24,637 bases of DNA, from NCBI GenBank assembly GCA_024653345.1, contig JANLFV010000008.1:1-24637 (forward strand), read 5' to 3'. The notes beneath the pieces were generated by a model. It had not been told where the DNA came from. It ran no database searches and saw nothing but the letters and a program-made list of their open reading frames with translations. The translations under genes and the position numbers were made by a program. This DNA is from Candidatus Acetothermia bacterium (GTDB taxonomy: Bacteria > Bipolaricaulota > Bipolaricaulia > RBG-16-55-9 > JANLFV01). Position 1 is the stretch's first letter; each line of letters begins with the position of its first letter. Below are positions 5,506 to 14,988 of the stretch, piece by piece.

Positions 5506-5886
5506 CTACTCCAGGACCAGGTTCTTGGAGTATTTGTTGTAATCGGCGAGGAGGAACTCGTTGCTCATCTCGATCGCGTCCGCGGGGCAGATGTCGGTGC
5601 ACTGGCCGCAGAAGGTGCACCTTGCGAGATAAAACCGGACCTTCTTCTCCTGGGGGACGAACTGGATCACATTAGCAGGACAGACCCTTCCGCACTGCTC
5701 GCAGCCCACGCATTTCTCGCGGTGGTAGATGAGCTTCCCGCGGAACCGCGGGGGCGTCGGGACCGGTGGGACGATCGGCCTCCCCGACTTCAAGAAGGCG
5801 CTGACCGACTTGGGCATATACTTTACGGGGAACTTGTTCGTCGCCGGCTTCTTGAAGAGCTGCTCGATGATCTGGGCCAGGATCAT
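5506..5886 (-). CDS. mbhN: Membrane-bound hydrogenase ferredoxin-like subunit (MbhN/NuoI family)
   Basis: This 126-residue protein has two [4Fe-4S] motifs, CVGCEQCGRVCP (C59, C62, C65, C69) and CTFCGQCTDICP (C90, C93, C96, C100). The layout is that of NuoI and of MbhN in group 4 hydrogenases. It would pass electrons from reduced ferredoxin to the cluster of the small subunit on the cytoplasmic side. The N-terminal segment (KFPVKYMPKSV) resembles the amphipathic lead-in of MbhN/MbxN proteins. It is the last gene of the minus arm, 11 bases after mbhM, with a clear AAAGGAG ribosome site. A longer NuoI of a true complex I is less likely because no NuoE, F or G is nearby. Confidence 0.88.
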   Translation of the reverse strand: MILAQIIEQLFKKPATNKFPVKYMPKSVSAFLKSGRPIVPPVPTPPRFRGKLIYHREKCVGCEQCGRVCPANVIQFVPQEKKVRFYLARCTFCGQCTDICPADAIEMSNEFLLADYNKYSKNLVLE

Positions 5887-5897
5887 TCTCGGCTCCT

Positions 5898-6884
5898 TTA
5901 CTTGAAGAAGAGCCCATCGAGGACGATCAGGACCAGCCCGGCCAGGGCCACCCCGGTGAGCGGGACCCAGAAGCTGTAGGCTACCTGGCTCACCTTCAGG
6001 CGGGCCGCGGCGACCCGGACGGTCGTGACCCCGACCAGGATGATCAGGAAGAGCTTGACCAGGAAGAAGGCGGTGTCCACGGCCCCGCCGGCCAGGCCCG
6101 CAAGCCCCAGCACCCCGCCGAGCCGATAGGGGAAGAAGAGGGCGATGATCAGGGCCCCCATGACCACGGTCTTCACCCCGTCGGCCAGGCGGAGCAAGGC
6201 CAGGTTCCGCCCGGAATACTCGACCGTCACCCCCCCGGCCAGCTCGGTCTCCGCCTCGGCGATGTCGAACGGGATCTTCGAGAGCTCAGCCGGCATCACC
6301 AGGAGGAGGACCCCCACAAGGAGGATCGCCCCGATGAACCCCAGCGGCCCGAGATAGGCCCAGACCGGATTGGAAGAGATCGCCCCCAGAGAGAAGGCCG
6401 CGATCCCCGGGAGGGCCTGGTTCAGCCGCCAGGCTAAGGCCACGATCGCCGCCGCGAGCGGAAGCTCGTAGCTCATCATCATCACGATCTCCCGCTGGGC
6501 CCCGATCACGGCATAAGGCGAGCCGGAGGCAAAGCCCCCGATCGCCAGGGCCACGGCCGGAAGGGCGAGAAGGTAGAGGACCAGGATGAGGTCGCCATAC
6601 CCGCTGAAGAGCGGCCGCTGGTCCCCCAAGGGAAGGTAGAAGAGGACCGTCACGACCGATGCGAGGGCCAGGAACGGCGCGCCGTTGTAGATCCAGGGGA
6701 CCGCGCTCTCCGGGACGATGTTCTCCTTCACCAGGAGCTTCTTGATGTCCCGGAAGGGCTGGACGATCGGCGGCCCGATCCGGGCCTGCATCCTTGCGGC
6801 CAGCTTCCGGTCGATCCCCTGGTAGACGAGCCCGAGGACCACCCCGCCGAAGAGGATCACCACCGAGCCCCAGAGGAGTTCCAT
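5898..6884 (-). CDS. mbhM: Membrane-bound hydrogenase subunit M (NuoH / complex I subunit 1 family)
   Basis: This 328-residue polytopic membrane protein has about eight hydrophobic segments. The early cytoplasmic loop ARIGPPIVQPFRDIKKLLVKE (about 34-54) is the family signature near the quinone-site loop of NuoH. A second conserved loop, ELSKIPFDIAEAETELAGG, lies near residue 200 and carries the acidic cluster of this family. In Mbh complexes this subunit anchors the hydrogenase arm to the membrane and links redox chemistry to the ion-pumping subunits. It begins one base after mbhL stops and precedes mbhN. The short form and the neighbours favour a hydrogenase over respiratory complex I. Confidence 0.92.
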   Translation of the reverse strand: MELLWGSVVILFGGVVLGLVYQGIDRKLAARMQARIGPPIVQPFRDIKKLLVKENIVPESAVPWIYNGAPFLALASVVTVLFYLPLGDQRPLFSGYGDLILVLYLLALPAVALAIGGFASGSPYAVIGAQREIVMMMSYELPLAAAIVALAWRLNQALPGIAAFSLGAISSNPVWAYLGPLGFIGAILLVGVLLLVMPAELSKIPFDIAEAETELAGGVTVEYSGRNLALLRLADGVKTVVMGALIIALFFPYRLGGVLGLAGLAGGAVDTAFFLVKLFLIILVGVTTVRVAAARLKVSQVAYSFWVPLTGVALAGLVLIVLDGLFFK

Positions 6885-6885
6885 G

Positions 6886-8142
6886 CTAACCCTTGAGCCT
6901 CCTCGTCTTCTCCCAGCTCTTCGCCAGCAGCTGGGCTATCTGCCAAGTCTCCTCCCGCCCGTCCCGGCGGACGATCACCCGGTCCATGCAGGCGATGCAG
7001 GGGTCGATGCAGGCTATAATTATGGGTATATCGGCGATCTGGGCCCCCTGGAACATCGGGCGGTAGCTCATCAGATTCGAGTAGGTCGGGCACTTCACCT
7101 TCCACAGGATCGGGATCTCGCTGTCCCTCTGGAAGCGGATGTAGTGGAAGAGCTCCCCACGCGGGGCCTCGTGCCTCCCGATCCCCTCGCCCTCCCTTTT
7201 CTTGATCTGGACCAAGAGCTCGGTCATCTCCTCCTTGGTGGCGCGGCCGATCTCGCCCTCGGGCATCTTCTCTAAGGCCTGCTCGATCAGCCCGATCGAC
7301 TGCTCGACCTCGAGCAAGCGGACGATGATCTTGTCGTAGACATCGCCGTGGACCTCGGGCCGGAAGAGGTCCGGGGTGATCGGCTCAAGCTCGAGTGCGG
7401 GATAGGCGAGGTAGGGCTGGTCGACCCGGATGTCCTTCTTGACGCCCGAGGCCCGCGCCGTCGGCCCGACGGCCATCAGCTCCAGGGCATCCTTGTAGCT
7501 CAAGACCCCGACATCGCGGGTCCGAAGCTCGATCGTCGGGTCATGGAGGAAGGCGTCGACGAGCATCTCCAGAAGGTCTTTGTAATACCTGAGGGCCTGG
7601 CGGACGAGCGGCTCCTGCTCTCTAGTGATGTCCCGGCGGACGCCCCCAATCGTGACTAAGGCATAATTGACGCGGTTCCCGGTGAGCAGCTCGAGGATGT
7701 CCATCACCTGCTCCCGGACCCGCCAGGTAAGGTGTAATAAAGTATCGAACCCCAGCTCGTGGGCCGCGACCCCGGCCCAGAGGATGTGGGAATGGATCCG
7801 CTCGAGCTCGGCGATGATCACCCTGATGTATTCCGCCCTCGGGGGGACGGCGATCCCGAGGGCGTTCTCCACGGCCCTCGAGAAGGTGATCAGGTGGGAG
7901 ACCGAGCAGATCCCACAGAGCCTCTCGGCGAGATACAAGGTCTGGAGGGGATTCCGCTTCATCCCCAGGACCTCGAGCCCGCGGTGGTTCCAGCCCGGCT
8001 TGATCTCGACATCCACGACGCGCTCGCCCTCGAGGTCAAAGCTGAACTGGAGTGGCTCCTTGAGCGAAGGGTGCGTCGGGCCGATCGGGATGGTGTAGTA
8101 AGTCCGCTGGAGGCGCGCCTCCTCTTCTGTCATTCTAGCCAT
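6886..8142 (-). CDS. mbhL: [NiFe] hydrogenase large subunit, group 4 (MbhL/NuoD family)
   Basis: This 418-residue protein is of the NuoD/hydrogenase large-subunit family. It keeps both Ni-ligand pairs: C76 and C79 in RLCGICSVSH, and C382 and C385 in DPCIAC near the C-terminus. NuoD of complex I lacks these cysteines and Mbx/Mbs-type complexes lack part of them, so this should be a working [NiFe] hydrogenase. The tail after the second pair is 33 residues. Some hydrogenases need C-terminal cleavage, and I see no protease or hyp genes here. The start overlaps mbhK by 13 bases. A second ATG at 8133 would give the common ATGA overlap and cannot be excluded. Confidence 0.93.
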   Translation of the reverse strand: MARMTEEEARLQRTYYTIPIGPTHPSLKEPLQFSFDLEGERVVDVEIKPGWNHRGLEVLGMKRNPLQTLYLAERLCGICSVSHLITFSRAVENALGIAVPPRAEYIRVIIAELERIHSHILWAGVAAHELGFDTLLHLTWRVREQVMDILELLTGNRVNYALVTIGGVRRDITREQEPLVRQALRYYKDLLEMLVDAFLHDPTIELRTRDVGVLSYKDALELMAVGPTARASGVKKDIRVDQPYLAYPALELEPITPDLFRPEVHGDVYDKIIVRLLEVEQSIGLIEQALEKMPEGEIGRATKEEMTELLVQIKKREGEGIGRHEAPRGELFHYIRFQRDSEIPILWKVKCPTYSNLMSYRPMFQGAQIADIPIIIACIDPCIACMDRVIVRRDGREETWQIAQLLAKSWEKTRRLKG

Positions 8143-8624
8143 GTCCCTTTCACCCCGGCCGCGTCCTTCCGCCAGGGGTGTCCCTCCATATCATAGGGCA
8201 GGAAGATGTTCCTGGAGTCGGGAATCCCCTCAAACTCGACCCCCAAGAATTCGATCTTCTCCCGCTCGGCCGTGAGGGCCCCGGGGATGAGGTCGCAGAT
8301 CGAGCGGACCTTCGGGTCGGCCTTCGGGACGGTGAACCGGAAGTTGACCGACTGCTCACCCCGCCGCTGGCCGTAGCCGATCGAGAAGTGGTAGCAAAGC
8401 TCGAGCTCCCCCCCTAGGTCCCGCCCGGAGATCGTGGCGAGATGGGGGAACTGGAAGGTGATCAAGTGGGCGACAGCCTCGTGGAGGATCTCGCGGTCGA
8501 TCTCGAACCAGATGACGGGGTAGGAGTAGATCCCCAGGTTCGAGCGGATCTCATCTATCCGGGTGGCGCGGATCCGCGGGCCAAACCTGGCCTGGAAGGA
8601 CTCCGCCAATCCGTTCGGCTCCAT
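8130..8624 (-). CDS. mbhK: Membrane-bound hydrogenase subunit K (NuoC family)
   Basis: This 164-residue protein is of the NuoC 30-kDa family. It has an N-terminal alpha/beta part, then YHFSIGYGQRRGEQSVNFRFTV-type strands and the C-terminal DMEGHPWRKD motif (about 143-152), equivalent to the D.EGHP.R.D signature of NuoC. It is a structural partner of the large subunit at the cytoplasmic face. It is the first gene of the minus-strand arm, with AGGA seven bases before the ATG. It is divergent from the Mrp-type arm, with 120 bases between the two starts. Confidence 0.9.
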   Translation of the reverse strand: MEPNGLAESFQARFGPRIRATRIDEIRSNLGIYSYPVIWFEIDREILHEAVAHLITFQFPHLATISGRDLGGELELCYHFSIGYGQRRGEQSVNFRFTVPKADPKVRSICDLIPGALTAEREKIEFLGVEFEGIPDSRNIFLPYDMEGHPWRKDAAGVKGTWLE

Positions 8625-8744: not shown

Positions 8745-9254
8745 ATGCTGAGATCGCTGACCACAGGGCTAGGGGCTCTTGTCATCTACCTAATCCTGAC
8801 GATGGAGTCGGGCTCGCTCGGCCTCTGGAGCCTCGAGGAGCTCATTGTCGGGGCAGTCCTCGCCCTCGGGGTCGGGCTCATCGCCGGGAGGGTCCTGGGG
8901 AAGGGCGAGGCCGATTACAAGAAGCTCTTGAACCCCCGCCGCTGGGCGCTCTTCCTGGTCTACCTCGTGGGGCCTTTCTTCTTCGCCATGTTCCGGGCGA
9001 ACCTCGATGTCGCCTACCGGGTGATCACCGGGAGGATCAAGCCCGGGATCATCAAGATCAGCCCGGGCCTGAAAAGCGACCTGGCCGCCAGCCTCCTCGG
9101 GAACTCGATCACCCTCACCCCGGGGACCTTGACTGTCGATATCGATAAAGAGAACAACTTCTACATCCACTGGATCAATGTCCGGAACCCGCAGCCCTCC
9201 CCGGAGGAGGTCTGCGGAAGGTTCCCCCGCTGGGCGAGGAGGATTGCCGAATAA
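8745..9254 (+). CDS. mnhE: Na+/H+ antiporter subunit E (MnhE/MrpE; MbhA equivalent)
   Basis: This 169-residue membrane protein has two to three N-terminal hydrophobic segments, then the MrpE core (NLDVAYRVITGRIKPGIIKI, then SDLAASLLGNSITLTPGTLTVDI), which is diagnostic for the family. I chose the ATG at 8745 because GGAGG lies five bases before it and the product then begins at the first membrane helix as in homologues. The frame stays open to a TTG at 8688, which lacks such a site. MrpE is a small structural subunit of the Mrp antiporter and corresponds to MbhA in archaeal Mbh hydrogenases. It opens the plus-strand operon. Confidence 0.88.
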   Translation: MLRSLTTGLGALVIYLILTMESGSLGLWSLEELIVGAVLALGVGLIAGRVLGKGEADYKKLLNPRRWALFLVYLVGPFFFAMFRANLDVAYRVITGRIKPGIIKISPGLKSDLAASLLGNSITLTPGTLTVDIDKENNFYIHWINVRNPQPSPEEVCGRFPRWARRIAE

Positions 9255-9258
9255 TAAG

Positions 9259-9516
9259 ATGAGCGCCTTCGCGATCGCCGCGATCTTCTTGGGGTTCTAC
9301 ATGCTCTTCTGCCTCATCCGGGTCGCCGCCGGGCCGACGGTCCCCGACCGGGTGGTCGGGGTCGATACGATCAACACCCTCGTCGTGGCCCTGATGGTCC
9401 TGCTCGGGACATTCTACAAAGAGGTCATCTTCATCGATGTGGCGATCGTCTACGCCCTCCTCTCTTATATCGCCACTCTCTATATCGCCAAGTATCTGGA
9501 GGGCTCGCCATGGTGA
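9259..9516 (+). CDS. mnhF: Na+/H+ antiporter subunit F (MnhF/MrpF; MbhB equivalent)
   Basis: This 85-residue protein has three membrane helices. It carries the family motif CLIRVAAGPTVPDRVVGVDTINT (about 15-37) and the final FIDVAIVYALLSYIATLYIAKYL helix. The start at 9259 lies four bases after mnhE. The frame is open further back, but that sequence lies inside mnhE in another frame and is not MrpF-like. GAGGA lies about 16 bases upstream, a poor spacing, so translation is probably coupled to mnhE. It overlaps mnhG by seven bases. Confidence 0.88.
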   Translation: MSAFAIAAIFLGFYMLFCLIRVAAGPTVPDRVVGVDTINTLVVALMVLLGTFYKEVIFIDVAIVYALLSYIATLYIAKYLEGSPW

Positions 9517-9869
9517 TCTTCATCTATGTCCTTTTAGGGATCGGGGTCCTCTTCAACGGGCTCGGCTCGTTCGCCCTCCTCCGCTTCCCCGATGTCTTCA
9601 CCCGCTTGCATGGGGCCACGAAGTGCACCACCTTCGGCTCGATCTTCACGATTCTCGCGACCGTGGCTTATGGCTTCTGGGGTGTTGCAAGGGGCATCCA
9701 AGGCGACCTGACCCTGGCGATCCATGCCCTCCTCGCGTTGATCGCCCTGCTCTTGACCAACCCCACGGGGGCCCATGCGATCGCCCGTGGGGCAAGGCGG
9801 AGCGGGGTCCTCCCCAAGCGGGCGGTCGTGGACGCCTACGAGGGCTATAAGTTCGAGGAGGAGGAATAA
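9510..9869 (+). CDS. mnhG: Na+/H+ antiporter subunit G (MnhG/MrpG; MbhC equivalent)
   Basis: This 119-residue protein has three hydrophobic segments and the MrpG motif FALLRFPDVFTRLHGATKCTT (about 21-41), followed by the AIHALLALIALLLTNPTGAHAIARGA helix and tail. The C-terminal extension is hydrophilic and acidic (YEGYKFEEEE). It is part of the ion-translocating module with MnhE and MnhF. Its ATG lies inside the end of mnhF, and the next gene starts one base after its stop. Confidence 0.9.
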   Translation: MVIFIYVLLGIGVLFNGLGSFALLRFPDVFTRLHGATKCTTFGSIFTILATVAYGFWGVARGIQGDLTLAIHALLALIALLLTNPTGAHAIARGARRSGVLPKRAVVDAYEGYKFEEEE

Positions 9870-9870
9870 G

Positions 9871-10122
9871 ATGATGGACGCGGTCGTCCAGGTGGTCCTT
9901 CTGGTGGTGATCTTGGGCGCGGGCTTCCTCGCGATCAGGTTCAAGGACCTCCTCTCCTCGGTCGTGGCCCTGGCGGCGGTGAGCCTGGCCTTATCACTCG
10001 AGTTCTATGTCCTCCAGGCCCCGGATGTGGCGATCGCCGAGGCCGGGATCGGGGCGGGGCTGACCACGGCCGTCTTCGTCCTGGCCCTCCGCAAGACGCG
10101 GCGGAAGGAGGAGGAACGTTAA
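9871..10122 (+). CDS. mbhD: MbhD-like membrane subunit (DUF4040 / N-terminal MrpB-like)
   Basis: This 83-residue protein has three hydrophobic segments. The motif [26 protein letters not shown]-type sequence (about 42-68) is shared by MbhD, by the C-terminal part of MrpA and by related hydrogenase subunits. I chose the ATG at 9871 because a purine-rich GAGGAGGAGGAA run precedes it; the longer frame upstream lies inside mnhG. In Mbh-type complexes MbhD and MbhE together replace the C-terminal end of MrpA and help form the ion path. Confidence 0.87.
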
Positions 10123-10123
10123 G

Positions 10124-10396
10124 ATGAGGATCGTCGGGTTCGTGGCCTTCCTGGTGGTCGCGGCCTTCCTCTTGGTCGTGCCGGCGGCGATGCGCCCCTT
10201 CGGCGAGCCCCGGCTCTGGGAGATGGACCGCTACTTCCTCGACCACGCCCAGGAGGAGCTGGCGGCGAACAATGTCTGCACGGCCATCGTCTTCGACTAC
10301 AGGGGCTACGACACCCTGGGGGAGGCGACCGTGCTCTTCACCGCCGTCGTGGCCGTGGCCGCGGTCCTGCGAAAGCTCAAGGAGGGCGAGGCCTAG
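10124..10396 (+). CDS. mbhE: MbhE-like membrane subunit
   Basis: This 90-residue protein has an N-terminal membrane helix, a middle soluble stretch and a C-terminal helix. The sequence [30 protein letters not shown] (about 50-79) is the hallmark of MbhE and of the matching end of MrpA, including the DYRGYDT..E motif with the acidic residue in the last helix. It starts one base after mbhD and ends directly against mnhB, so the whole set is one tight transcription unit. Confidence 0.88.
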
Positions 10397-10846
10397 ATGT
10401 CCAAGCTCGTCCGGACGATCGGCTGGCTCCTCTATGCTCCGATCCTGATCTTCGGGTTCTATGTGATCATGCACGGCCACCTCACCCCTGGCGGGGGCTT
10501 CCAGGGCGGGGCGGTCGTGGCGAGCGGATTTGCTTTGCTGATCGTGGCCTACGGGGCCAAGGGGGCGGGGCTGAAGGAGCGGCTCCTCTCGGTCGTCGAG
10601 AGCGGTGGGGCCCTCATCTTCGTCGGGCTGGCCTTCCTCGGGTTGGGCGCGACCTTCTTTTACAACTTCCTCGCCGCCGGCGGCGGGGTGGTCTTCAATG
10701 AGCTCGTCCCTCCCGGGCCGAATCCCGGGGACCTGAACACCGCCGGGACGCTCCCGCTGATGAACTGGGCCGTCGGGCTGAAGGTCCTGGCCGGGCTGGG
10801 GAGCATCGTCCTGCTGTTGGCCCTCTTCCCCAGCGAGGAGGAGTGA
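10397..10846 (+). CDS. mnhB: Na+/H+ antiporter subunit B (MnhB/MrpB; MbhF equivalent)
   Basis: This 149-residue protein has four membrane helices and the MrpB motif GFYVIMHGHLTPGGGFQGGAVVASG (about 20-44). A loop rich in Gly and Pro follows, then a final helix with NWAVGLKVLAGLGSIVLLL. It is a core ion-path subunit of Mrp antiporters and Mbh hydrogenases. It begins immediately at the end of mbhE (stop TAG, then ATG), with GGAGGGCGAGG as a possible ribosome site inside mbhE. Confidence 0.92.
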   Translation: MSKLVRTIGWLLYAPILIFGFYVIMHGHLTPGGGFQGGAVVASGFALLIVAYGAKGAGLKERLLSVVESGGALIFVGLAFLGLGATFFYNFLAAGGGVVFNELVPPGPNPGDLNTAGTLPLMNWAVGLKVLAGLGSIVLLLALFPSEEE

Positions 10847-10852
10847 AGTGAG

Positions 10853-11203
10853 ATGATCGCGAACTTCCCCTATGTTACAGCTATCCTGCTGATGATCTTC
10901 GGGCTCTATGCGGCCCTCTTCCGGAGGAACTTGATAAAGATCGCGATCGGGATCACATTGATGGAGAGCGGGGTCAACCTCTTCTTGGTCAGCCTCGGCT
11001 ATCGGCGCGGCGGGATCGCGCCGATCTATACCCTCGCCCCGGAGGCCGCCGAGAGGATGGTCCTCCCCACGCCCCAGGCCCTCACCCTTACCAGCATCGT
11101 CATTGGGCTGGCGACGACGGCGGTCTTGCTGGCGCTCATCGTGGTCATCTACCGCCATTACGGAACCCTGGACGCGGACAAGGTCAATAAGCTGAGAGGA
11201 TGA
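10853..11203 (+). CDS. mnhC: Na+/H+ antiporter subunit C (MnhC/MrpC/NuoK family; MbhG equivalent)
   Basis: This 116-residue protein has three membrane helices and the NuoK/MrpC signature: GLYAALFRRNLIKIAIGITLMESGVNLFLV (about 17-46), with the membrane Glu in LMESGVNL, then the C-terminal PTPQALTLTSIVIGLATTAVLLALIV helix. This is the small partner that sits beside the large antiporter subunit D. GAGGAGTGAAGTGAG precedes the ATG. Confidence 0.93.
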   Translation: MIANFPYVTAILLMIFGLYAALFRRNLIKIAIGITLMESGVNLFLVSLGYRRGGIAPIYTLAPEAAERMVLPTPQALTLTSIVIGLATTAVLLALIVVIYRHYGTLDADKVNKLRG

Positions 11204-11210
11204 GCTCGCG

Positions 11211-12782
11211 ATGGACATCTTAGCCCATGTGCCGATCCTGGTCGTGGGGATCCCGCTTTTGGGGGCCTTCGCCACGCCGCTGATCGCCCGGGCCGGGGCC
11301 AGGGCCCGGAACTGGTTCGCTATCTTCATCCTGCTCCTCACGACTGCCCTGGCGATCGCGCTGGCCGTCTCGGTCTTCCAGGCCGGCCCGCGGGTCTATG
11401 TCCTCGGGGGGCAGAGCTTCGGGTTCACCCTTCCCTCGGGCTACTTCTTCCCGATCCGGATCATCCTCGAGGCCGACGGCCTGAGCGCCTTCTTTGTCCT
11501 CATCATCGCCGTCACCACCCTGCTCGGGGCAATCTACTCCACGGCCTTCATGCGGGCCCACTCCGGGCTGGAGAAATACTATGCCCTCCTCCTGCTCCTC
11601 GCCGCCGGGATGTTCGGGATGGTCGTAACTGGTGATGCCTTCAACTTCTTCGTCTTCCTCGAGATCACCTCGATCGCCGCCACGGGGCTGGTAGCCTTCC
11701 GGACCGGGCGGGCCGAGTCGGGCGAGGCGGCCTTCAAGATGATGGTCCTCTACAACATCGGCGGGCTCCTCGTCCTCTTGGCCGTAGCCATCCTCTACGG
11801 CCAGTATGGGGCCCTCAACTTCGCCTATCTCGCCAAGCTCATCGAGTATTCCCTGCTCGATGTGGTGGCCCTGGCCCTCTTCGTCCTCGCACTGGCGCTG
11901 AAGGCCGGGGCCGTCCCGATGCACATGTGGGTCCCCGACGCCTATCCCGCCGCCCCAGCGCCGGTCACCATGGTCATGGTCGCGAACACCCAGATCGGCC
12001 TCTACGGCTTATATCGGATCTGCTTCTCACTCTATGGGCTGAAGCTCACCCCCGCCCTGGTCGGCTGGATCGTGATCATCCTCGGGATATTGTCGATCTT
12101 CATCGGGGTCTCGATGGCCGTGATCCAGCGCGACCTCAAGCGGCTGATCGCCTATTCGGGGATCGCCCAAATCGGGTATATGCTCCTCGGGGTGGGCGTG
12201 GGCCTGGCGGTCCTGGGGACCCCGGCCTTAGACTCCTACGGCCTGATGGCGATGAAGGGCGGGATCTTCCACATCGTCAACCATGCATTATACGAGGGGC
12301 TGCTATTCCTGGCTGCGGGGGCGGTCTCCTACCGGGCGGGGACAAGGAACTTGGACCAGCTCGGCGGCCTGGCTCATAATATGCGCTGGACCGCGTTCTT
12401 CTTCATCATCGGCGGGGCAGCGATCGCCGGCCTCCCGCCGTTCAATGGCTTTGCGAGTAAGCTGATCATCTACGAATCAGTCTTCAAGTTCAACCCGATC
12501 TTGGCTGTGATCGCGCTCCTCGCCTCGATTATCACTCTGGCCATCTATGCCCGGGCCTTCCAGAGCGTTTTCGTCGGGCCGAAGCTCCCCGCTTACAAGG
12601 ATGTCCGGGAGGCCCCGCCGAGCATGATGTTCGCCATGGCGATCTTAGCCGCCCTCGTTGTCCTCTTCGGCCTCTTCCCCGACCTGGTGGTAAGATATCT
12701 TGTCAGCCCCGCGGCCCAGGCGCTGGTGAACCGGGCCCAGTATATCGAGGCGATCCTGGGGGCTGGGCTGGGGGTGAGGTAG
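11211..12782 (+). CDS. mnhD: Na+/H+ antiporter subunit D (MnhD/MrpD, NuoL/M/N family; MbhH equivalent)
   Basis: This 523-residue protein has about 14 membrane helices and is the main ion-pumping subunit. It keeps the family's charged residues: Glu151 in the fifth-helix motif FVFLEITSIAATG, Lys231 in the ALKAGAVPMHMWVPDAYP motif with His238, and a further Lys in RDLKRLIAYSGIAQIGYML (about residue 310). These form the proton or sodium path along the middle of the membrane. Length and motif order are normal. Only one such large subunit is in the operon, as in Mbh (one MbhH) rather than Mbx (two). Confidence 0.95.
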   Translation: MDILAHVPILVVGIPLLGAFATPLIARAGARARNWFAIFILLLTTALAIALAVSVFQAGPRVYVLGGQSFGFTLPSGYFFPIRIILEADGLSAFFVLIIAVTTLLGAIYSTAFMRAHSGLEKYYALLLLLAAGMFGMVVTGDAFNFFVFLEITSIAATGLVAFRTGRAESGEAAFKMMVLYNIGGLLVLLAVAILYGQYGALNFAYLAKLIEYSLLDVVALALFVLALALKAGAVPMHMWVPDAYPAAPAPVTMVMVANTQIGLYGLYRICFSLYGLKLTPALVGWIVIILGILSIFIGVSMAVIQRDLKRLIAYSGIAQIGYMLLGVGVGLAVLGTPALDSYGLMAMKGGIFHIVNHALYEGLLFLAAGAVSYRAGTRNLDQLGGLAHNMRWTAFFFIIGGAAIAGLPPFNGFASKLIIYESVFKFNPILAVIALLASIITLAIYARAFQSVFVGPKLPAYKDVREAPPSMMFAMAILAALVVLFGLFPDLVVRYLVSPAAQALVNRAQYIEAILGAGLGVR

Positions 12783-12787
12783 ATAGA

Positions 12788-13123
12788 ATGGAAGTGCTGA
12801 AGACCGGCTCGGGCTTCTGGAGCGCGCTCATCTGGGTGGCCATCGCCTTAGGGGCATTCCTGATCATCTGGCTCTTCTCGAGGGCCTTCGAGAGAGGCTA
12901 CAAGCGGGGGACGGACCAGGCCGACCCCTTCCTCTCGGGGAACCCACCTTCCCCAGGCCAGCGGGTGACGGCCTCGGACATCTACTGGGGGTTCGTCGAG
13001 GCCCTCAAGGGGTATTATCGGCCATTGGTGCGGGCCCATAGCGGGGTGGTGAACGACTATCTCGCCTGGGCGATCCTCGTCGGGGCGATCGTCTTCGTCC
13101 TCCTGGGAGGATTCATGCGATGA
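12788..13123 (+). CDS. mbhI: MbhI-like membrane subunit
   Basis: This 111-residue protein has a membrane helix near each end (about 12-32 and 88-108). A hydrophilic middle between them contains PPSPGQRVTASDIYWGFVEALKGYYRPLVRAHSG-type sequence. This plan and the place between subunits D and J match MbhI. MbhI ties the antiporter arm to the hydrogenase arm and resembles the lateral-helix tail of NuoL. Sequence similarity in this family is low, so context carries much of the call. The end overlaps the next gene by the four bases ATGA. Confidence 0.75.
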   Translation: MEVLKTGSGFWSALIWVAIALGAFLIIWLFSRAFERGYKRGTDQADPFLSGNPPSPGQRVTASDIYWGFVEALKGYYRPLVRAHSGVVNDYLAWAILVGAIVFVLLGGFMR

Positions 13124-14988
13124 AGAAGGTCATCTACCTCAACCGGGCGCTGTGGGTCTTCCACATGAACACCGGCTCCTGCAACGGCTGTGACATCGAG
13201 ATCATCGCCGCCCTCACCCCCCGCTACGATGTAGAGCGGTTCGGGATCAGGTTGGTCGGCTCGCCCCGCCACGCCGATGTCCTGCTCGTCACCGGGCCGG
13301 TCACGAAGTGGATGGAGCCGGTCTTAAGGCGGGTCTACGACCAGACCCCGGACCCGAAGGCCGTGGTCGTGATCGGGAACTGCGGGAACGACGCCGGGGT
13401 CTTCTACGACTCCTATGCCGTCCTCGGCTCGGTTGACAAAGTGATCCCGGTCGATGTCTACATCCCCGGCTGCCCGCCCCGCCCGGAGGCGATCATCTAC
13501 GGCGTGGTCAAGGCCGTCCAGAAGCTTGAGAACATCAAGGTCGTCGAGGAGGTCGAGGTCCGGGCTCCCCGGCCCGATGAGCGGCGGATCGAGGTCTATG
13601 TCAAGTATGAGCCGCGGGAGCCGGTCCCCGAGCTCGCCGTGGCCGAGCGGATCACCAACTTCCGCGAGGTGCTGGGGCCCTACACCGAGGAGGGCCTCAG
13701 GCGCGAGGCCAGCCGCTGCTTGCAGTGCCCCGACCCCGCCCCGTGCGTCGAGGCCTGTCCGGCCCATGTGAACGCCAAGAGATACATCAAGGAGGCGAGC
13801 GAGGGGCGCTACTGGGATGCCTTGCAGACGAACCTCGAGCGCCTCCCCTTCCCCGCCACTTGCGGGCGGGTCTGCCCTCACCCCTGCGAGACGGAATGCA
13901 CCCGGGGGGAGTTCGACCAGCCGATCGCGATCCGGGCGATCAAGCGGTTCGTGGCCGATCGGGGGATGAAAGAGCGGTGGTATCCCGAGGTCCAGGCTCA
14001 CCGGTCCGAGCGGATCGCCGTTGTAGGGAGCGGCCCGGCGGGCTTGACCGTCGCAGTGAAGCTGGCCCTCGAGGGCTTCCGTGTGACCGTCTTCGAGCGG
14101 AGCGAGGCCGTCGGGGGGATGCTGATGCAATCGATCCCGGACTACCGCCTGCCTCCTGACATCCCGCCGAAGGAGGTCGAGGAGATCAAGCGCCTGGGGG
14201 TCGAGATCAAGACCGGGAAGGAGCTGGGGCGGGACTTCACCATCCAGTCCCTCAAGGACGAGGGCTATGCCGCGATCTTCCTGGCGATCGGGGCCCACAA
14301 GGACCAGTGGATGGGGATCCCCGGGGAGGACCTCGAGGGGGTCCACGCCGCGGTCGACTGGCTGAAAGGGATCAAGCTCTCCCAGGATCGCCCCTCCCTC
14401 GCGGGGAAGAGGGTGATCGTCGTCGGCGGCGGGGATGTGGCGATGGACGCCGTCTGCACGGCCTTGAGGCTGGGGGGCGAGGTAATGATCGTCTACCGCC
14501 GGGCGCGGGAGCAGATGCCGGTCACACCGGAGGAGCTCCTCGCCGCGGAGAAGGAGGGCGTTGCGTTCAATCTCCTGGCAAACCCGGTCGAGATCCTCGG
14601 CAAGGATGGGAAGGTCCGGGGCGTCCGGCTCATCCGGATGGAGCTGGGCGAGCCGGACGAGTCCGGGAGGCGGCGGCCGATCCCGATCAGAGGCTCGGAG
14701 TTCGAGCTCCCCGCTGACATGGTCATCGAGGCCATCGGGGAGAACCCCGAAGGGGAGGCCCTCGCGCAGATGGGCCTGAAGGTGACCAAGTGGGGCGGGA
14801 TCGAGGTCGATGACCAGATGAGGACCAACCTCGAGGGGGTCTTCGCCGCCGGGGATGCTGTGACTGGCGCGGCCACGATCATCCAAGCGGTCGCGGGCGG
14901 GCTCAAGGCCGTGGAATCGATCAAGGAATACTGTGAGAAGTCACTCGTCGGGGTCGCTGGCTCTCGAACGCGCGAGATGGAGTCCTAG
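13120..14988 (+). CDS. Hydrogenase small subunit (MbhJ/NuoB) fused to a GltD/NfnB-like FAD- and NAD(P)-binding oxidoreductase
   Basis: This is one uninterrupted 622-residue frame. Residues 1-145 are an MbhJ/NuoB small subunit with all four ligands of its [4Fe-4S] cluster: C21 and C24 (TGSCNGCD), C88 (GNC) and C118 (IPGCPP). A hydrophilic linker (about 145-185) follows. Residues 186-605 match the glutamate synthase small-subunit / NfnB family: two cluster motifs (C200, C203, C209, C213 and C248, C252, C256, C260), an FAD site VVGSGPAGLT (301-310), a second dinucleotide site VIVVGGGDVAMDA (432-444), YRRAREQMP (459-467), and the FAD motif VFAAGDAVTGAATIIQA (574-590). The family normally oxidises NAD(P)H or works in electron bifurcation. 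No stop or restart site lies at the junction and codon style does not change. Which nucleotide is used, and in which direction electrons flow, cannot be read here. Confidence 0.92.
   Translation: MKKVIYLNRALWVFHMNTGSCNGCDIEIIAALTPRYDVERFGIRLVGSPRHADVLLVTGPVTKWMEPVLRRVYDQTPDPKAVVVIGNCGNDAGVFYDSYAVLGSVDKVIPVDVYIPGCPPRPEAIIYGVVKAVQKLENIKVVEEVEVRAPRPDERRIEVYVKYEPREPVPELAVAERITNFREVLGPYTEEGLRREASRCLQCPDPAPCVEACPAHVNAKRYIKEASEGRYWDALQTNLERLPFPATCGRVCPHPCETECTRGEFDQPIAIRAIKRFVADRGMKERWYPEVQAHRSERIAVVGSGPAGLTVAVKLALEGFRVTVFERSEAVGGMLMQSIPDYRLPPDIPPKEVEEIKRLGVEIKTGKELGRDFTIQSLKDEGYAAIFLAIGAHKDQWMGIPGEDLEGVHAAVDWLKGIKLSQDRPSLAGKRVIVVGGGDVAMDAVCTALRLGGEVMIVYRRAREQMPVTPEELLAAEKEGVAFNLLANPVEILGKDGKVRGVRLIRMELGEPDESGRRRPIPIRGSEFELPADMVIEAIGENPEGEALAQMGLKVTKWGGIEVDDQMRTNLEGVFAAGDAVTGAATIIQAVAGGLKAVESIKEYCEKSLVGVAGSRTREMES

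Follow-up and report, generated by a model that had tools for sequence, protein, structure and literature searches.

A GltD-type flavoprotein module fused to the MbhJ subunit of an Mrp-linked Mbh-type [NiFe] hydrogenase: a candidate NADPH port

The window, the stretch of 24,637 nucleotides analysed here, carries genes for all subunits A to N of an Mbh-type hydrogenase, and the reading frame of the small subunit, MbhJ, continues into a GltD-type flavoprotein (Table 1). Both Ni-Fe ligand motifs of the large subunit MbhL are intact, RLCGICSVSH (C76, C79) and DPCIACMDR (C382, C385). MbhN carries two [4Fe-4S] motifs, CVGCEQCGRVCP and CTFCGQCTDICP. Given these intact ligands, and the two cluster motifs of MbhN together with its match to 6cfw_N, the locus encodes a whole Mbh (group 4d-like) hydrogenase in which the ferredoxin entry is kept. 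The other features of group 4d membership, namely four cluster cysteines in MbhJ and the Mrp/Mnh subunits with MbhI, are also present.

Gene order is unusual in the window's genus, where K-L-M-N (5506-8624) diverges from A-J (8745-14988), while relatives have A to N in one row. With this change of order, nothing of the row follows mbhJ at its 3' end any longer, and this may have made the fusion possible. The small CYCPHC protein encoded after the fusion is 79% identical in the sister species and is a possible member of the operon.

Table 1. Genes and features of the hydrogenase locus (positions in the window; residues are numbered in the fusion protein)
Feature	Position	Strand	Basis or remark
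MbhN, 126 aa, putative ferredoxin entry	5506..5886	-	6cfw_N, E 5.7e-32
MbhM (NuoH-like)	5898..6884	-	family match
MbhL, [NiFe] large subunit	6886..8142	-	6cfw_L, E 1e-128 over 15-388 (374 residues)
MbhK (NuoC-like)	8130..8624	-	divergent from MbhA, 120-base spacer
MbhA (MnhE-like), 169 aa	8745..9254	+	putative: position and sequence character
MbhB (MnhF-like)	9259..9516	+	family match; start taken from sequence
MbhC (MnhG-like)	9510..9869	+	family match
MbhD	9871..10122	+	family match; start set by comparison with sister species (G001)
MbhE	10124..10396	+	family match
MbhF (MnhB-like)	10397..10846	+	family match
MbhG (MnhC-like)	10853..11203	+	family match
MbhH (MnhD-like ion-translocating subunit)	11211..12782	+	NF006240 above cut-off
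MbhI	12788..13123	+	NCBIfam NF053600 above cut-off
MbhJ::GltD-type fusion, 622 aa	13120..14988	+	ORF, Pfam and structure-sequence matches, motifs
MbhJ part, residues 1-138	13120..13533	+	match to 6cfw_J
Two-cluster domain (Fer4_20)	residues 177-290
FAD/NADP(H) domains	residues 291-607
Lys275 codon	13942..13944	+	position of NfnB glutamate / StnC K170 cluster ligand
CYCPHC protein, 76 aa	15010..15240	+	directly downstream of fusion, no family match

The fusion frame is open from its ATG, which overlaps the stop codon of mbhI, and contains no internal stop. Residues 6-138 match Pyrococcus furiosus MbhJ (6cfw_J, E 2.8e-58) and include the four cluster cysteines, C21, C24, C88 and C118. A linker of 30-40 residues (about 139-176) leads into the flavoprotein half, where Fer4_20 (2.7e-29) and Pyr_redox_2 (1.2e-39) are detected and residues 165-607 match NfnL/GltD proteins (5jca_L, E 1.2e-101). 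The two-cluster domain contains eight cysteines (C200, C203, C209, C213, C248, C252, C256 and C260), and the dinucleotide motifs GSGPAG and GGGDVA lie at 303 and 436. An earlier note on this DNA had described a small subunit joined in one frame to a full GltD/NfnB-like module within an Mrp-hydrogenase operon, had placed the MbhJ cysteines at exactly these positions, and had proposed two [4Fe-4S] sites, an FAD motif and a second dinucleotide fold in the module; all of this is borne out, with the Mrp-linked Mbh set complete and MbhN retained.

Both available genomes of the genus carry the fusion. In the sister species, an independent genome (G001), it is 624 aa long, lies at the same place and is 92% identical overall (98% in the J half, 91% in the flavoprotein half). 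The two-species alignment has no frame break and no gap ahead of the C-terminal tail; a stop between the halves in a related genome, which the earlier note had named as the mark of an assembly error, is thus not seen in this relative. The dN/dS values between the two species (J 0.017, linker 0.39, cluster domain 0.11, FAD/NADP domains 0.16) show every part to be under purifying selection and the protein to be maintained as a whole. GC and GC3 of both halves agree with the operon. The second half is unlikely to be translated on its own: the frame contains no internal ATG, and no clear Shine-Dalgarno sequence precedes GTG174 or GTG184. At the sequence level, the fusion is confirmed as genuine.

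The type of module is indicated by Lys275. In our alignment, this residue stands where NfnB has the glutamate ligand of its FAD-proximal cluster, and it is common to the fusion and the NfnABC chains 9bov and 9n5u. Stand-alone NfnB/GltD relatives examined have Glu in this column, including the genome's own NfnB on contig C11, except for one protein with Gln (L154). In modules fused to NuoF, HdrA or FlpD, the residue is Lys in most and His or Glu in a few; two Deltaproteobacteria-type proteins (L014, L039) have His. With column 275 masked and long rows left out, a tree separated the Lys-type from the Glu-type with 100/100 support and placed the fusion outside the NfnB/GltD clade. Within the Lys-type, the fusion grouped with other members in one tree (92/94) and formed a deep separate branch in another (78/69).

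A cryo-EM study of the Stn complex reported that the equivalent lysine of StnC, K170, coordinates the cluster and is essential, that the StnC flavin is non-bifurcating, and that electrons pass from NADPH to FAD and on through a chain of [4Fe-4S] clusters, bifurcation being the job of the HydBC-like StnAB (PMC10482914). K170 and Lys275 are equated here through the aligned 9bov/9n5u chains, together with the remark in that paper that a lysine stands in for the glutamate of NfnB. As a guide to the fusion module StnC has its limits, because its C114 is replaced by Ala219 and the equivalent of NfnB R201, the arginine that hydrogen-bonds FAD N5, is kept as R343 (IPDYRLP). The motif YRRAREQMP occurs as in NADP(H)-using relatives, and NADPH rather than NADH is most likely the coenzyme.

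In the AlphaFold model, residues 170-610 have pLDDT values mostly of 85-97, with dips to about 57-70; the J half, predicted without an alignment, stays below 50. The best fold matches of the module are 5jca_L (NfnI, TMt 0.88), 4ylf_B (T. maritima Nfn), 9n5u/9bov (NfnABC), 8oh5_C (StnC) and GltD. The flavoprotein half is complete; it is not an ordinary NfnB and would act as a plug-in NADPH module of the Lys type. No NfnA-like second-flavin partner is encoded in the window; the genome's NfnA-NfnB pair lies on C11. Similarly, the fusion contains no NuoG/FdhF domains and the window no StnAB genes, the partner domain being MbhJ.

Lys-type modules occur in other redox hubs of the same genome, as NuoF::GltD and HdrA::GltD. 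On contig C22 (L150, 5887-11852), NuoE, a 1053-aa NuoF::GltD of the Lys type, a NuoG-N-like protein and a glutamate-synthase-domain-like protein form a row that resembles an unusual Stn/Hyd-type complex. On C11 (L149, 4983-15118), HdrBC-like proteins, HdrA::GltD, NfnA, NfnB, the small and large subunits of a group 3 [NiFe] hydrogenase and a maturation protease stand in one row, possibly encoding an Hdr-Nfn-hydrogenase complex. A second group 4 hydrogenase with Mrp subunits lies on C25 (L140, 6347-18135; large-subunit motifs RICGICSMSH and DPCYCCTER). Ahead of it come a small subunit of the group 3 type and a protein that resembles a large subunit but lacks cysteine altogether, with SSRISGLASW replacing the Ni-ligand motif; this active-site-less pair is perhaps an electron-transfer module.

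We think it probable that the fusion is the small, proximal-cluster subunit of an ion-translocating, Mrp-linked Mbh-type [NiFe] hydrogenase that has its own NADPH dehydrogenase and reversibly shares electrons among H2, ferredoxin and NADP(H). The NADPH specificity, the electron path, its direction and the absence of bifurcation are what we infer for such an enzyme. NADPH would bind the second Rossmann domain and hand a hydride to FAD. Electrons would then leave FAD singly through the FAD-proximal cluster, probably held by C213, C252, C256 and Lys275, and pass to the second module cluster, probably held by C200, C203, C209 and C260; we assume these cysteine sets by analogy with dihydropyrimidine dehydrogenase. 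From there they would enter the Mbh wire, through the MbhN clusters, the MbhJ cluster or both, and reach the Ni-Fe site of MbhL, where H2 chemistry would be coupled to ion movement by the Mrp modules; MbhN would still accept ferredoxin. The cluster domain adjoins the linker, so that along the chain, in sequence order and not in a spatial sense, the exit clusters of the module are nearest MbhJ.

The direction of flow can be considered from textbook potentials. For NADPH at -370 mV and 25 °C, H2 formation costs about +8 kJ/mol at 1 atm H2 and yields about -14 kJ/mol at 1e-4 atm, and at high H2 the opposite transfer, from H2 to NADP+, runs downhill. NADPH-driven ion pumping is unlikely, because about 14 kJ/mol at 1e-4 atm H2 moves little charge. 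Since NADPH oxidation to H2 is uphill at 1 atm and gains little at low H2, and the reverse is downhill at high H2, we favour a reversible port that is equally likely to form NADPH from H2 when H2 is high and to dispose of NADPH when H2 is low. At high H2, NADPH would be made, plus reduced ferredoxin against the ion gradient; at very low H2, NADPH would be disposed of as H2. The built-in NAD(P)H port that the earlier note had proposed gains support, as a route that would be reversible and pass one electron at a time.

The genome encodes CODH/ACS, which makes it plausible that NADPH, ferredoxin and H2 are all of importance in it. Acetogenic redox networks have been proposed for the phylum (PMC6092417, PMC9469722, PMC9992828), and CODH/ACS and the Hdr-Nfn-group 3 row agree with them. 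More tentatively, it is possible that a single membrane complex directly interconverts H2, NADPH, reduced ferredoxin and the ion gradient without a separate transhydrogenase, the membrane potential setting how much goes to ferredoxin and how much to NADP+.

The earlier note had also suggested flavin-based bifurcation or confurcation, in which the FAD of the module would split or merge electrons of NADP(H), ferredoxin and H2. The NfnB/NfnL fold, the retained arginine R343 and the encoded ferredoxin subunit MbhN are consistent with this suggestion, but Lys275 takes the place of the glutamate ligand and the module falls outside the Glu-type NfnB/GltD clade. Furthermore, StnC, with the same lysine and an equivalent arginine, is reported to be non-bifurcating and leaves that task to its HydBC-like partner (PMC10482914), and neither an NfnA-like nor a HydBC-like partner is encoded in the window. 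We therefore regard bifurcation by this module as unlikely.

It is likewise improbable that the module serves as a tethered ferredoxin:NADP+ reductase, passing electrons from MbhN to NADP+ past the Ni-Fe site and so dividing them between H2, with pumping, and NADPH, without it. MbhN is kept, transfer from ferredoxin to NADP+ is downhill, and Mbh is known in the phylum as a ferredoxin-oxidising enzyme (PMC6092417). However, NfnA and the Glu-type NfnB on C11 already serve that job, and the coupling would be wasted. This activity would use the same wires as a reversible NADPH port and is compatible with it.

A module unwired to the hydrogenase, acting as a sensor, as an assembly or docking domain, or for another partner such as glutamate synthase, seems quite unlikely. 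Within the protein body, constraint is weakest in the linker (dN/dS 0.39), which fits a flexible tether, and GltD modules work with many partners; yet all cofactor motifs have been conserved along with the two-cluster domain (dN/dS 0.11-0.16), and the cluster domain follows directly on the linker, with its exit clusters closest to MbhJ in sequence. An assembly or binning artefact joining two genes, conceivable for a draft genome of 31 contigs, has a negligible chance. The second species has an unbroken, 92% identical counterpart in the same location, selection acts on it, and GC and GC3 of both halves also fit the operon; an artefact would require one and the same error in both assemblies.

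The reading as a reversible NADPH port concerns an architecture found in a single genus so far. The taxon is Candidatus Bipolaricaulota: over the compared region, a GltD protein from a genome of the window's class has the same sequence as one in a named Bipolaricaulota record (L045 and L172). The fusion was not found in the other 98 genomes searched in this phylum. Where they have a close MbhJ orthologue, 70-78% identical to the MbhJ of the fusion over its length, it stands alone at about 145-150 aa and its gene keeps the usual place in the A-to-N row. In the neighbourhoods inspected, none of these relatives has a GltD gene adjoining its unfused mbhJ. Beyond the phylum, a 290-residue query across the junction was run against samples of 398, 300, 301, 297 and 246 genomes from five phyla, Thermotogota not among them; there were many MbhJ matches and no fusion among the matches listed. 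A contig scan of genomes returned mostly ordinary GltD proteins, and no fusion was found in the viral contigs and plasmids searched. Five candidates for a second fusion, G088 (730 aa), G252 (479 aa), G774 (564 aa), G253 (match 7-215) and G535 (match 11-214), proved to be a plain MbhJ ending in a stop, long frames that overlap it, or an MbhJ with a C-terminal tail. None has a flavoprotein of the fusion's type adjacent to its MbhJ.

The Thermotoga maritima Mbx cluster (TM1205-TM1217) may include a GltD-like gene, of which we found no confirmation in the papers retrieved. In the open-access literature that we found, no report describes MbhJ or NuoB in fusion with a module of the GltD type, and the earlier note's remark that no complex of this architecture has been described holds within that literature. 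The component modules are already known; their combination was found nowhere else.

A covalent NADPH module on Mbh would join the NADP pool, H2 and an ion gradient in one enzyme, a linkage important for acetogens and for fermenters near the thermodynamic limit. It also bears on the origin of the NAD(P)H input arm of complex I, as here the nicotinamide module is added at the NuoB-type subunit and not through NuoEFG. The fusion would also lend itself naturally to biotechnological constructs that connect H2 with NADPH.

To our knowledge, group 4d energy-converting hydrogenases are held to exchange electrons only with ferredoxin. The closest known systems belong to the ferredoxin-coupled, Mrp-linked group 4d of HydDB: the Mbh of P. 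furiosus (6cfw), which J, L and N match best, and the Mbh A-N of Ca. Bipolaricaulota Ran1, described as ferredoxin-driven (PMC6092417). All subunits and the intact Ni ligands are shared with these enzymes, but here MbhJ bears a 480-residue NADP(H) flavoprotein, and K-L-M-N, encoded on the other strand, does not continue the row after J.

On the side of the module, StnC (8oh5) and the NfnABC subunit NfnA (9n5u, 9bov) are similar in that a subunit of the redox wire carries a fused GltD-like NADPH module, with Lys at the FAD-proximal cluster; the short C-x3-C-x3-C spacing is common to the fusion, 9bov and 9n5u. Their partner, in contrast, is of the NuoG/FdhF type and supplies a bifurcating core that resembles HydBC, and the CLxC strip follows the flavin domains in 9bov/9n5u but precedes them in the fusion, as in NfnB. 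NfnB/NfnL (5jca, 4ylf) and GltD share the overall fold, domain order, FAD and NADP(H) motifs and two clusters, whereas the fusion has Lys for the Glu ligand, belongs to a separate clade and has no NfnA or GltB partner.

Other systems resemble the fusion in principle. HdrA-NfnB insertions described in ANME-1 (PMC9012536), like the NuoF::GltD and HdrA::GltD of this genome, use the same type of module to add NADPH to another electron hub; the hub in the fusion is instead a membrane hydrogenase subunit, the one that holds the proximal cluster. In Saganbacteria, AsrA/AsrB-like genes have been described together with Mrp-linked group 4 hydrogenases (PMC6349859), and we found three loci of this kind with separately encoded AsrA/AsrB-like genes (L141, L204, L205). 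These too combine an ion-translocating group 4 hydrogenase with an extra module that could bring NAD(P)H, but theirs is an unrelated FNR-type module encoded by separate genes and that of the fusion is GltD-type and covalent. Finally, the glutamate synthase-linked [FeFe] hydrogenases of group A2 in HydDB (PMC5037454) also link a GltD-type protein to a hydrogenase, in that case a soluble [FeFe] enzyme with the GltD-type protein encoded by a separate neighbouring gene.
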